Shown piece after piece: positions 6,925-31,333 of a stretch of 44,027 nucleotides of DNA (positions are counted from its first letter, which is position 1; each line of letters starts with the position of its first letter). The stretch comes from Hydrogenimonas sp. (GTDB lineage: Bacteria; Campylobacterota; Campylobacteria; Campylobacterales; Hydrogenimonadaceae). A program made the position numbers and the translations under genes. The notes beneath the pieces were generated by a model. The model ran no database searches and was not told the DNA's origin. It saw nothing but the letters and a program-made list of their open reading frames with translations. The stretch is taken from contig NZ_JAOZPV010000004.1 in assembly GCF_029932565.1 (NCBI RefSeq), forward strand, positions 17,641-61,667. Reading direction: 5' to 3'.

Positions 6925-7398
6925 TTATCCCAATATATGGTAATGGTTCAAACCCTCCATGACCAATGCGCTGGAGAGCCCCGCCGCAATGCCGGCGATG
7001 AGGTCGTCACCCATGACACCCCATCCGCCGGGGGCATCCCGATCGATCCGTCCGATAATCGAAGGTTTCCAGATGTCGTAGATACGGAAAAAGATGAAGC
7101 TGAGAATCGCAGCAACAGGAGCCGTTCCGCTGATGCAGAGTGCCAGCCAGATTCCCGCGATTTCGTCGACGACGATGCGCGAGTCGTCATGAATGCCGGT
7201 GCGGACCTCGTACACGTTCGTCATTCGCACACCGAACAGAAAGATCAGGATCGTCAATAGAAAGAGGGTTTCAAGAGGAAAATAGGCCAGTATCGCAACG
7301 CCGCTGACCAATCCCACCAGCGTACCCCATGTTCCGGGTGCTTTGGGCAGAAAGCCGCTTCCCAGACCGGCAAGAAAGAGTTTTTCCTGAAAATTCAT
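6925..7398 (-). CDS. pgpA: Phosphatidylglycerophosphatase A
   Basis: MNFQEKLFLAGLGSGFLPKAPGTWGTLVGL...; start at 7398 preceded by GGAGG; the ORF-track extension to 7539 runs through repetitive intergenic DNA. Confidence 0.9.
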   Translation of the reverse strand: MNFQEKLFLAGLGSGFLPKAPGTWGTLVGLVSGVAILAYFPLETLFLLTILIFLFGVRMTNVYEVRTGIHDDSRIVVDEIAGIWLALCISGTAPVAAILSFIFFRIYDIWKPSIIGRIDRDAPGGWGVMGDDLIAGIAAGLSSALVMEGLNHYHILG

Positions 7399-7417
7399 CG
7401 AAACCTCCGATTTTTTT

Positions 7418-7540
7418 AGTGAAAAACTAAAAGTGAAAAGTGAAAAGTTTTCGTGAACCGCACTTTGTGCGGACAACTTTAAATAAAAGGAGCGAAGCGA
7501 ACCTCCTCGACTTTTAGTTTTTCGTTTTTGACTTTTCACT
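7418..7540. repeat. Intergenic element with inverted degenerate heptamer arms and two GC hairpins
   Basis: Left AGTGAAA|AACTAAA|AGTGAAA|AGTGAAA|AGTTTTC; reverse complement of right AGTGAAA|AGTCAAA|AACGAAA|AACTAAA|AGTCGAG; hairpins CCGCACtttGTGCGG and GGAGcgaagcgaaCCTCC. Confidence 0.88.
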
Positions 7541-8724
7541 CACTTCAGTGAAGTGGTCTGATACAGCTTCATCAGCTTGATGTAAAAATCCTCTTCGCTC
7601 TGGCTCTCGAGCAGTCCCGATCCCGGCATCAGGTCGTAGTAGATCTTTTCGAGATTGTCGAAACGGTTGGGATAGAGGTGGGCCAGAATCATCGCCGAGA
7701 CCTCTTTTCTGATCAGAACGGCGGGTGGAAGCAGCCCCTTTTTCAACAATTCGAGAATCGAGTCGGCATGATAGGAGATGTGATGATGTTCACCGTGCGG
7801 GCATGTCTTGTTGCTCACCAGTGTGCGGCAGATATCGCAGTAGGCATACTCCGGTGCCGTGTGAATTTTAATCTTGAACCCCTTGAGATGGTCGAAAACG
7901 GACTGAATGCGGTTTTTGTCGTAAAAACTGCCGAGCCCTGCGTGGTTCTGCCCGATGACCAGTTCGTCGCACCCGAAGTTTTCGGCGACAAGTGCATCGA
8001 GGATCACTTCGTTGTAGCCGGCGAAGATATAGGTATACTCCAGCGGAACGATGATGACACGGTTGGCCGGCAGATAGTTCTTGACGAAATAGTCCATCGA
8101 GCGGTAGCGGAGCTCATAGGGCAGAGTCGGGTCTTCCTGATAGGGTTTCAACAGAAAAATGACGACGAGGTCCGAGCGGTCGAGTGTCGTACGGATAAGA
8201 CGTTCATGGGCTCTGTGAAGGGGGCGTGCCGCCATCATCAGTGCGCTGGTCTGCTTGGCTCCGATACGGTTTTTCGCCGTCGAAATCTGCTCTTTTATCT
8301 TCCGGAATTTCGGATACGCGACATGGTAGCTACCGCTGATGGCGTAATGACCCAGCCGTTTCATCGTGGCCTGCACACCGGGGTGTGCGGGGTTCTGGGT
8401 TCCGTAGATCTCCTGAACACGCACCTGCGGGTCGATCTCGAACACCTCTTTCGTTTCGATCCAGCCTACGGGTTCGTGATCGACCATCAGTGTCACTTTC
8501 TCACCGGGGTTCAGGGACTGGAGGACTTTTTCATTGCGACGACCTTTGGGTGCGAGGATAAAAGGGAAAGGGAAGCTGTGCTCCCTGTAGCACTTGGTTC
8601 GCGTCACCTCTTCGGCAGTCTTCTTGTCCATCAGGCCATCGACGGGCTTTAGGAGTCCCTCCTGTACGAGGGCGAGGGTCGAGAGCGCCTCCCGGTCGAT
8701 ATAGAGAATTTTATTGGAACCCAT
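7540..8724 (-). CDS. Sulfate adenylyltransferase (ATP sulfurylase) family protein, altered active-site motifs
   Basis: Global ATP sulfurylase similarity (RPLHRAHE, ...CPHGEHHHISYHADSILELLKKGLLPPAVLIRKEV); Cys pairs CDIC...TCPH; expected QTRN and GRDHAG motifs replaced. Confidence 0.8.
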   Translation of the reverse strand: MGSNKILYIDREALSTLALVQEGLLKPVDGLMDKKTAEEVTRTKCYREHSFPFPFILAPKGRRNEKVLQSLNPGEKVTLMVDHEPVGWIETKEVFEIDPQVRVQEIYGTQNPAHPGVQATMKRLGHYAISGSYHVAYPKFRKIKEQISTAKNRIGAKQTSALMMAARPLHRAHERLIRTTLDRSDLVVIFLLKPYQEDPTLPYELRYRSMDYFVKNYLPANRVIIVPLEYTYIFAGYNEVILDALVAENFGCDELVIGQNHAGLGSFYDKNRIQSVFDHLKGFKIKIHTAPEYAYCDICRTLVSNKTCPHGEHHHISYHADSILELLKKGLLPPAVLIRKEVSAMILAHLYPNRFDNLEKIYYDLMPGSGLLESQSEEDFYIKLMKLYQTTSLK

Positions 8725-16256: not shown

Positions 16257-16278
16257 AAACCCTCCTTTTTGGTGACGC

Positions 16279-16348
16279 GGGAATCGAAAATCGTGAATGG
16301 GGAGCGGCAAATTGGGATCTTTCCGACTCACGATTCACGTTTTACCCC
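16279..16348. repeat. Inverted degenerate heptamer arms in the glnD-mqnE divergent spacer
   Basis: Left GGGAATC|GAAAATC|GTGAATG|GGG; reverse complement of right GGGGTAA|AACGTGA|ATCGTGA|GTC. Confidence 0.65.
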
Positions 16349-30096: not shown

Positions 30097-31212
30097 TTGA
30101 TGCATTGTAAGCATTTTGGGGCATGTGGAAGCTGTTCGCTTTACGAGAAGAGTTATGCGGCGCAGCTGGCCGGGAAGATGGGGCGGCTCAGCGCCATGCT
30201 GGAACCTTTCTACCGGGCCGCGATCACGCCGTTCCCTTCTCCCGACGCCCATTACCGTGCCCGCGCGGAATTCAAGATCTTCCACGATGATACCGGCTGT
30301 CACTACGCGATGCGACACCTGGACAAAAAGCGGTTCGTGGTGCTGGAAGAGTGCAACATGGTGGCCGAGCCGATCGCGAAACGGATGTGGAAACTGATGG
30401 ATCTCATCAATGAAGAGAAGGAACTTTCGCGCAAACTTTTCGGCATCGAGTTTCTCTCTGCAACTACCGATGAGATTTTGGTAACGATGCTCTACCATCG
30501 CAGATTGGATGCGGTATGGGAGGAGCGTGCGCGAAAGTTGCAGGTGGAGCTTGGTATTAAAATCATCGGCCGCAGCCGGAAGCAGAAGATTGTACTGGAT
30601 GAAGAGTTCGTGACGGAATCGCTCGACATCGCCGGACACACCTGGCATTACCGCCAATACGAGCAGAGTTTCACCCAGCCCAACCCTCTCGTCAACGTCA
30701 AAATGGTCGAATGGGCGATGCGGCAGGTTTCCCGGTTCGGGGAAGGGGATTTTTGCGAACTCTACGCCGGCGCCGGCAACTTCACGATCCCCCTTTCGAC
30801 GCTTTTTGAGAAGGTGATCGCCACCGAAATCTCCAAACGCTCCATCAAGGCGGCTCTTGAAAACTGTAAACTCAACGGCGTTACAAACATCACGTTTGTA
30901 CGGATGAGCAGCGAAGAGTTTACCGAAGCACTGGAGGGGAAACGGCAGTTCACACGGCTGAAAGAGGTGGATCTTTCCGATTACAATATCGGAACCGTAC
31001 TGGTCGATCCGCCCCGGGCAGGGCTTGACGAAGGGACCCGCAAGCTCATTTCGCGTTTCGACACGATCATCTATATCTCCTGCAATCCCGAAACCTTGAC
31101 ACGGGACCTGGATAGACTGACGCAGACCCACAGGGTGATGGATGCGGCACTTTTCGACCAGTTTCCCTATACGGAGCATATGGAGGCGGGAGTCGTTTTA
31201 GTGAAAAGTTAA
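30097..31212 (+). CDS. trmA: tRNA (uracil-5-)-methyltransferase TrmA
   Basis: FCELYAGAGNFTIPLSTLFEKV, VLVDPPRAGLDEGT, IIYISCNPETLTRDL. Confidence 0.93.
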   Translation: MMHCKHFGACGSCSLYEKSYAAQLAGKMGRLSAMLEPFYRAAITPFPSPDAHYRARAEFKIFHDDTGCHYAMRHLDKKRFVVLEECNMVAEPIAKRMWKLMDLINEEKELSRKLFGIEFLSATTDEILVTMLYHRRLDAVWEERARKLQVELGIKIIGRSRKQKIVLDEEFVTESLDIAGHTWHYRQYEQSFTQPNPLVNVKMVEWAMRQVSRFGEGDFCELYAGAGNFTIPLSTLFEKVIATEISKRSIKAALENCKLNGVTNITFVRMSSEEFTEALEGKRQFTRLKEVDLSDYNIGTVLVDPPRAGLDEGTRKLISRFDTIIYISCNPETLTRDLDRLTQTHRVMDAALFDQFPYTEHMEAGVVLVKS

Positions 31213-31333
31213 TAGTGAAAAGTTGGGGAAGCTGCGCTATGCTCGCTTTTTATTTTGAATGAAAAAATCAGGAAAGATGGAAGCGACAAAGCCGCCTCCT
31301 AAACTTTTAGTTTTTAGTTTTCAACGTTTCACT
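31200..31333. repeat. Intergenic element with inverted degenerate heptamer arms
   Basis: Left AGTGAAA|AGTTAAT|AGTGAAA|AGTTGGG; reverse complement of right AGTGAAA|CGTTGAA|AACTAAA|AACTAAA|AGTTTAG. Confidence 0.85.

Follow-up and report, generated by a model that had tools for sequence, protein, structure and literature searches.

An intergenic element of inverted heptamer arrays and GC hairpins between sat and pgpA of Hydrogenimonas sp., a probable copy of a dispersed modular repeat

Among long simple repeats, heptamers are the most frequent in many bacteria, and the reason for this has been an open question since its first description (Mrazek 2007, cited via PMC4679880 and PMC4692102). In Xanthomonas, the heptamer GGGAATC forms 70-75 inverted pairs and follows a strand rule: it occupies the sense strand when located up to 50 bp from a stop codon and the antisense strand when located up to 50 bp upstream of an ORF (Rehm et al. 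2015, PMC4692102). Intergenic palindromes represent another described group, among which the CGTC-type REP is defined by a CGTC (or TGTC/CCTC) tag beside a stem of 8-9 bp with A/T at the first two pairs. Here we describe an element from a Hydrogenimonas genome that joins heptamer arrays with GC hairpins. It is probably a copy of a dispersed, modular and semi-selfish intergenic repeat, which possibly has a role as RNA at the 3' ends of genes.

The window, i.e. the whole stretch of 44,027 nucleotides that was analyzed, contains the following features.

6925 to 7398, minus strand: pgpA, phosphatidylglycerophosphatase A (PF04608), the downstream gene
7404 to 7408, minus strand: ribosome binding site GGAGG of pgpA, about 9 nt past the left arm (direct sequence reading)
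7418 to 7452, plus strand: left heptamer arm, AGTGAAA AACTAAA AGTGAAA AGTGAAA AGTTTTC (sequence reading)
7453 to 7475, plus strand: core hairpin module A, GTGAACCGC-loop-GCGGACA; the same module occurs in copies L002, L003, L028 and L029 and in L152 of genome G407
7485 to 7506, plus strand: core hairpin module C, AAAAGGAGCGAAGCGAACCTCC; the same module occurs in at least 7 copies of the own genome and in G407/G409
7509 to 7540, minus strand: right heptamer arm, on the minus strand AGTGAAA AGTCAAA AACGAAA AACTAAA AGTC (sequence reading)
7540 to 8724, minus strand: sat, ATP sulfurylase (PF01747), the upstream gene
16278 to 16346, plus strand: weaker inverted heptamer pair with another word (GGGAATCG... 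/ ...TTCACGATTCACG) and a 17-nt core
31199 to 31333, plus strand: second full copy between convergent genes, with an AGTGAAA/AGTTAAT left arm, two hairpins and an AACTAAA-type right arm

The spacer between sat and pgpA is filled by the element at 7418-7540, in which two inverted arms of degenerate heptamers flank two GC hairpins. This architecture had been proposed in the initial annotation from the letters alone, and the heptamers are indeed present as written; the lag-7 self-match of the spacer (17/21) was equalled in only 1 of 5000 dinucleotide-preserving shuffles (P=0.0002). The right arm is purine-rich in the sense of sat and lies directly 3' of the sat stop codon, and the abutment described before was confirmed, with the first A of the arm being the A of TGA (7540-7542). 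The left arm is located immediately upstream of the pgpA start and antisense to pgpA. Complementarity between the arms reaches 74% across 31 nt, and RNA folding of the region in the sat-pgpA sense, a check that the initial annotation had suggested, gave -41 kcal/mol (z=-2.7). Automatic ORF calling would use a GTG start that prolongs pgpA across the whole element (6925-7539, minus strand; 204 aa). However, relatives conserve the ATG at 7396-7398, which identifies this codon as the true start. The window contained no Rfam match, and phage records gave no match to the element.

The element is not unique, which would have counted against the initial annotation, but belongs to a family. Blastn with the element identified about 20 further sites in the host genome (1.86 Mb, 127 contigs), and the search with degenerate words that had been proposed for the host and related genomes yielded 50 matches to (ARYKAAA)3 with at most 1 mismatch, compared with 4 for the reversed control. 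The same word search was positive in 49 of 397 genomes across the class, with dense occurrence in this genus and in family f5. In the following, the host genome is labelled G000 and its closest relative G407, while G409, G074, G145, G397 and G006 are other genomes. Among the copies, the hairpins fall into module A (GTGAGCCGC-loop-GCGGACA), module B (GGATGCGGC-loop-GCCGCTTCCAT) and module C (GGAAGGTCGCTTCGCTCCCTTTTATT), which recur across dispersed sites in varying pairings and as inverted pairs, i.e. palindrome dimers of opposite orientation are present. The folding z score was below -2 in 20 of 25 elements with a mean of -3.8; RNAalifold on a mixed alignment of modules B and C returned no consensus structure and was uninformative.

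The period of seven is shared between the sites, and the words are local. A 412-kb sample of the host genome, the contigs of which were known through carrying matches, contained 25 lag-7 arrays compared with 0 in the Markov-shuffled control; other lags gave 0-11, lag 14 being the harmonic. When spacers were tested individually, the lag-7 signal was unreached by 200 shuffles in 17 of 151 spacers with 0.8 expected, and the other lags from 5 to 13 stood out in 0-4 spacers and the harmonic lag 14 in 9. The genome-wide excess of 7-nt periodicity over shuffled spacers, on which the initial annotation had staked its reading, is hence found and is specific for this period. The arm words differ from locus to locus and include AGTGAAA, AACTAAA, AGTTAAA, AACGAAA, AGTGGGA, AGTGGGT and AACAGTG as well as AATGAAG, AATTGAG, TTGGTCA, AGTGTTG, GGTAAAA and GGGGATT. 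The number of arrays per 100 kb amounts to 9 in G074, 1 in G409, 1 in G145 and 24 in the AT-rich G006, which belongs to another family.

Some arrays deserve separate mention. Very long and near-perfect facing arrays exist in G074 (L102 12121-12366), with about 11 units of (GGGCATT)n and about 9 of (ACTACCC)n. In the host genome, a (CTCTTCA)n array is situated inside a gene (L063 11422-11474, G000 C1:71422-71474) and encodes an apparent lipoprotein signal peptide, MRYLLLSLFALHSSLFTLAGCGYKP. Heptamer arrays also coincide with N gaps and contig ends (L067 1543-1704, L013, C59/C113, C77); the end of C59 and the start of C113 overlap within one element and these contigs are apparently adjacent, and gaps such as (CTCAACA)nNNN(CTCAACA)n suggest that the true arrays are longer than assembled.

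Array positions in the host genome were evaluated with home-made gene calls. Outside genes or at gene edges are 33 of the 38 arrays, at an intergenic share of bases of only 8.5%. The purine-rich strand was the sense strand in 16/16 scored arrays located up to 40 nt from a gene 3' end, and it was antisense in 10/13 arrays within 40 nt of a gene start. Of 17 arrays at 3' ends, 11 contain or adjoin the stop codon. Hence, the constant feature is polarity, with the purine-rich strand running 5' to 3' toward the core and, for the gene that is touched at its 3' end, in sense orientation. Stop codons in all three frames were considered as reason for the period, since 7 mod 3 = 1 and every frame would meet a stop. 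This idea is not supported: all sense frames are closed in only 8/17 3'-end arrays versus 4/17 for antisense, and it is also countered by the Xanthomonas words, which contain no stops.

The comparison among relatives, likewise suggested at the outset, revealed presence and absence among congeners. The gene sat was found in 14 genomes of the genus, and only G000 and G407, whose sat genes are 92% identical, carry the element at sat-pgpA; the spacer is about 10-45 nt long and free of the element in 11 congeners, and 1 further genome has another neighbour. The short spacer of G397 (L085) reads GATGGAG AATGGAA GATGAAT, three heptamer units that also supply the pgpA start codon and could be an incipient array or a coincidence. 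At sat-pgpA, G000 and G407 have nearly identical arms, but their cores read C'-A' and B'-C, respectively (sat sense), i.e. G407 has one inverted and one replaced module. At C1:68765, modules A and C are both kept in G409 in opposite orientation. The core inversions are thus based on two comparisons, one of which also includes module replacement.

At the other compared sites, the array is kept in G407 in 11 of 12 cases, mostly with a different word, and in G409 in 4-5 of 13, again mostly with other words; gain and loss are not polarised in these counts save at sat-pgpA, because the sites were picked for G000 having an array. Both arms changed from AGTTAAA/AACTAAA to AATTAAA/AATGAAA at C127:6180, where module B was also exchanged for C, and both arms became AATTAAA in G407 at C21:15229. 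Elsewhere one half is affected: at C17:66217 the right half is kept and the left half replaced, at C27:7180 the left arm changed from AACTAAA to AACGGTG next to a kept other half, and at C1:28864 the right arm turned from AATGAAG into AATGAAA throughout with the left arm kept. These comparisons show that site and polarity persist while words and modules turn over.

Among the own-genome loci examined, 18 elements have two arms. These arms share their word class above permuted partners (P=0.003 by match, 0.0003 by duplex energy). In the AGTGAAA class (5 elements), however, an arm fits its own partner no better than others (P=0.87 and 0.62). Hence, the word class is common to the arms of an element and base-by-base pairing is not maintained, and exact stem pairing as a selected feature was rejected on this ground. 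About a third of the 18 elements have arms of different words. The imperfect inverted repeat seen initially is therefore correct for the copy at sat-pgpA, but it is no defining property of the family. These data also bear on the possibility that the heptamer stem and hairpins form a functional RNA, which stabilises the 3' end of the sat mRNA or insulates pgpA translation and is selected for its structure. The strong folding of most copies, the location past a stop codon and ahead of the next ribosome binding site, and the retention of sites despite word change are in line with such a function. However, any inverted repeat yields a low energy, structure selected as a stem agrees poorly with different-word arms and with an AGTGAAA class that shows no pair-specific complementarity, and eleven congeners manage sat-pgpA free of the element, which together make this explanation quite unlikely.

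Even less probable is a REPIN or BIME in the strict sense, i.e. a GTAG-type REP dimer that a RAYT (Y1 transposase) moves in trans, the heptamer arms being decoration. The element consists of dispersed hairpin dimers in inverted orientation and shares with REPs the location 3' of genes (PMC3733652), and one RAYT-like gene exists in the host genome. However, neither GTAG nor CTAC occurs in 7418-7540. When the genus was searched with PF01797 and the flanks were read, the RAYT genes of G000 and G074 (L119, L121) showed no flanking element, and no Y1 transposase was found in G407 (88% complete) and G409, both of which have elements. The RAYT link was consequently rejected, and the single Y1/RAYT transposase gene of the host leaves the element with no link to a mobilising enzyme in this genome. 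Apart from this question, inverted GGGGTCAGGGCTTGAATTTTGAA sequences were observed on both sides of the Y1 transposase gene of G074 (L121, about 1084-1110 and 1916-1936), and a similar GGGGTCAGG/CTGACCCC palindrome is situated between AGTTAAA heptamer arms in Sulfurospirillum cavolei (L207 5753-5843).

A purely mutational hot spot, at which arrays arise de novo repeatedly at transcribed, ribosome-free 3' ends (for example by R-loops or slippage) and no mobile unit exists, appears to us similarly improbable. It would account for a polarity fixed relative to transcription, for the stop-proximal location, for the word change at kept sites and for the same phenomenon with other words in unrelated phyla (PMC4692102). 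However, modules A, B and C are common to dispersed sites and need copying, and arms near gene starts show the opposite polarity. Finally, a bidirectional intrinsic terminator between sat and pgpA is extremely unlikely, because the GC hairpins followed by T-rich sequence on both strands and one weak terminator-like call (7509-7493) are outweighed by T runs that are interrupted by the heptamer period and do not directly follow the stem, by calls at background level (3 versus 1.9 expected) and by co-directional flanking genes whose distance in relatives is 10-45 nt.

How could a dispersed modular repeat with these properties be built and maintained? A full copy may be regarded as two inverted half-elements, each with an array of about 3-6 degenerate 7-nt words and then an imperfect palindrome of REP-like type. 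The array of a half-element runs purine-rich strand first from the gene end inward. Arrays are located at gene 3' ends, where they often include the stop codon, and most of the spacer tends to be occupied by them. Words could turn over by slippage, with 7-nt gains and losses homogenising an array. The near-identical inverted arms might allow template switching in replication or recombination, which could copy a word class from arm to arm, invert the core and swap halves among dispersed copies. Slippage and template switching are the turnover mechanisms that we infer. New sites would stem from copying of an existing element by a putative enzyme; no target-site duplication was recognised at sat-pgpA, where the empty congener sites are too diverged. 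The persistence of arrays at 11/12 orthologous sites in spite of changed words could also reflect selection or recurrent de novo genesis instead of copying. Sites at gene ends may perhaps be kept since insertions are tolerated or mildly useful there. A possible use might be sense-purine RNA past the stop codon and then a stem ahead of the next gene, and any such use would presumably derive from period, composition and structure and not from a specific word.

The initial annotation knew of no described equivalent in Campylobacterota, and the inverted pair is not restricted to this phylum. A scan of 85,462 species genomes found at least 120 stretches with the inverted pair AAAAGTKAAAAGT-N40..70-ACTTTTMACTTTT, which come from many phyla; the matches listed include Bacteroidota, Acidobacteria, CPR lineages, Clostridia, Cyanobacteria, Nitrospirae, Planctomycetes, Gammaproteobacteria and Sulfurospirillum. 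The cores of these pairs differ between lineages. Among the matches listed, the distance from array to gene 3' end had a median of 8 nt at 94 such loci, and 73/101 were within 30 nt, as determined with rough ORF calls. The matches document presence; they show neither homology or common descent nor a common mechanism. In rumen Bacteroidaceae loci (L154, L172, L186, L197 and similar ones), the inverted AGTGAAA arms are near-perfect palindromes, often with TACCTTTGC on one or both sides, a sequence that resembles the Bacteroides -7 promoter box.

A more far-reaching idea, which we regard as unlikely, is a bacteria-wide system, either an enzyme or a specific replication or transcription process, that writes 7-nt repeats onto gene 3' ends, such that site, period and purine-sense polarity are kept and the word is rewritten between sister species, sometimes in both arms. 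Regardless of this, the question of heptamer prevalence becomes testable in terms of gene-end arrays, a polarity set by the neighbouring gene, a replaceable word and a fixed period. Quadruplexes are not the general reason, because the same polarity rule holds for the non-quadruplex words found here and for the G-rich Xanthomonas words. Since it comprises both array-rich and array-poor species and shows flip-like core inversions, the genus is well suited for seeking the mechanism.

Regarding known systems, the cyanobacterial STRR sequences (Calothrix, via PMC4692102), which had been named as the nearest analogy, share tandem heptamers and several words per genome with the arrays. In the open-licence literature, however, inverted pairing with hairpins was not found described for STRR, and the inverted heptamer pairs of Xanthomonas (PMC4692102) and REP/BIME dimers are nearer. 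TAACTGA repeats of Beggiatoaceae, Cyanobacteria and Bacteroidetes (MacGregor 2015, PMC4679880) are likewise intergenic tandem heptamers with small copy numbers in distant phyla, but they consist of a single invariant word, which is repeated directly with one indirect exception and lies immediately 5' of start codons, and this word is absent from the element. The heptanucleotide elements of Geobacter metallireducens (PMC2700814) also form families of 4-5 tandem heptamers, some classes of which are mostly paired; they differ in their words (GGACCGG, MTYCTGA) and were read as regulator sites. As regards the terminal inverted repeats of MITEs, the arms are inverted in this copy, but they consist of different words in about a third of the 18 elements.

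The GTAG- or CGTC-tagged REP, BIME and REPIN sequences (PMC3733652, PMC2817692, PMC3116915) resemble the element as short imperfect palindromes 3' of coding regions with alternative subtypes, often in inverted dimers 20-100 bp apart. Regarding CGTC-type tags, TGTC (minus strand, 7472-7475) borders module A and the following stem begins with CGC, and CCTC occurs at 7502 and 7505. In contrast to REP, BIME and REPIN, the element has neither a GTAG tag nor a linked RAYT, and its palindromes are set within heptamer arms. Among described systems, the heptamer pairs of Xanthomonas come nearest, and the element is neither a GTAG-REP nor forms G-quadruplexes. It agrees with Xanthomonas GGGAATC and Nostoc GGGGA(T/C)T (Rehm et al. 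2015, PMC4692102) in the 7-nt period, the dispersed and mostly intergenic location, the inverted pairs and the polarity rule. The words of Rehm et al. (2015) are G-rich and were explained by G-quadruplexes (PMC4692102), whereas AGTGAAA and AACTAAA contain no GG; the quadruplex explanation fails to cover the geometry, because AGTGAAA words are unable to form quadruplexes. What the present genus adds to the pairs of Rehm et al. (2015) are GC hairpin modules between the arms, words that change at orthologous sites, and inversion of the core.
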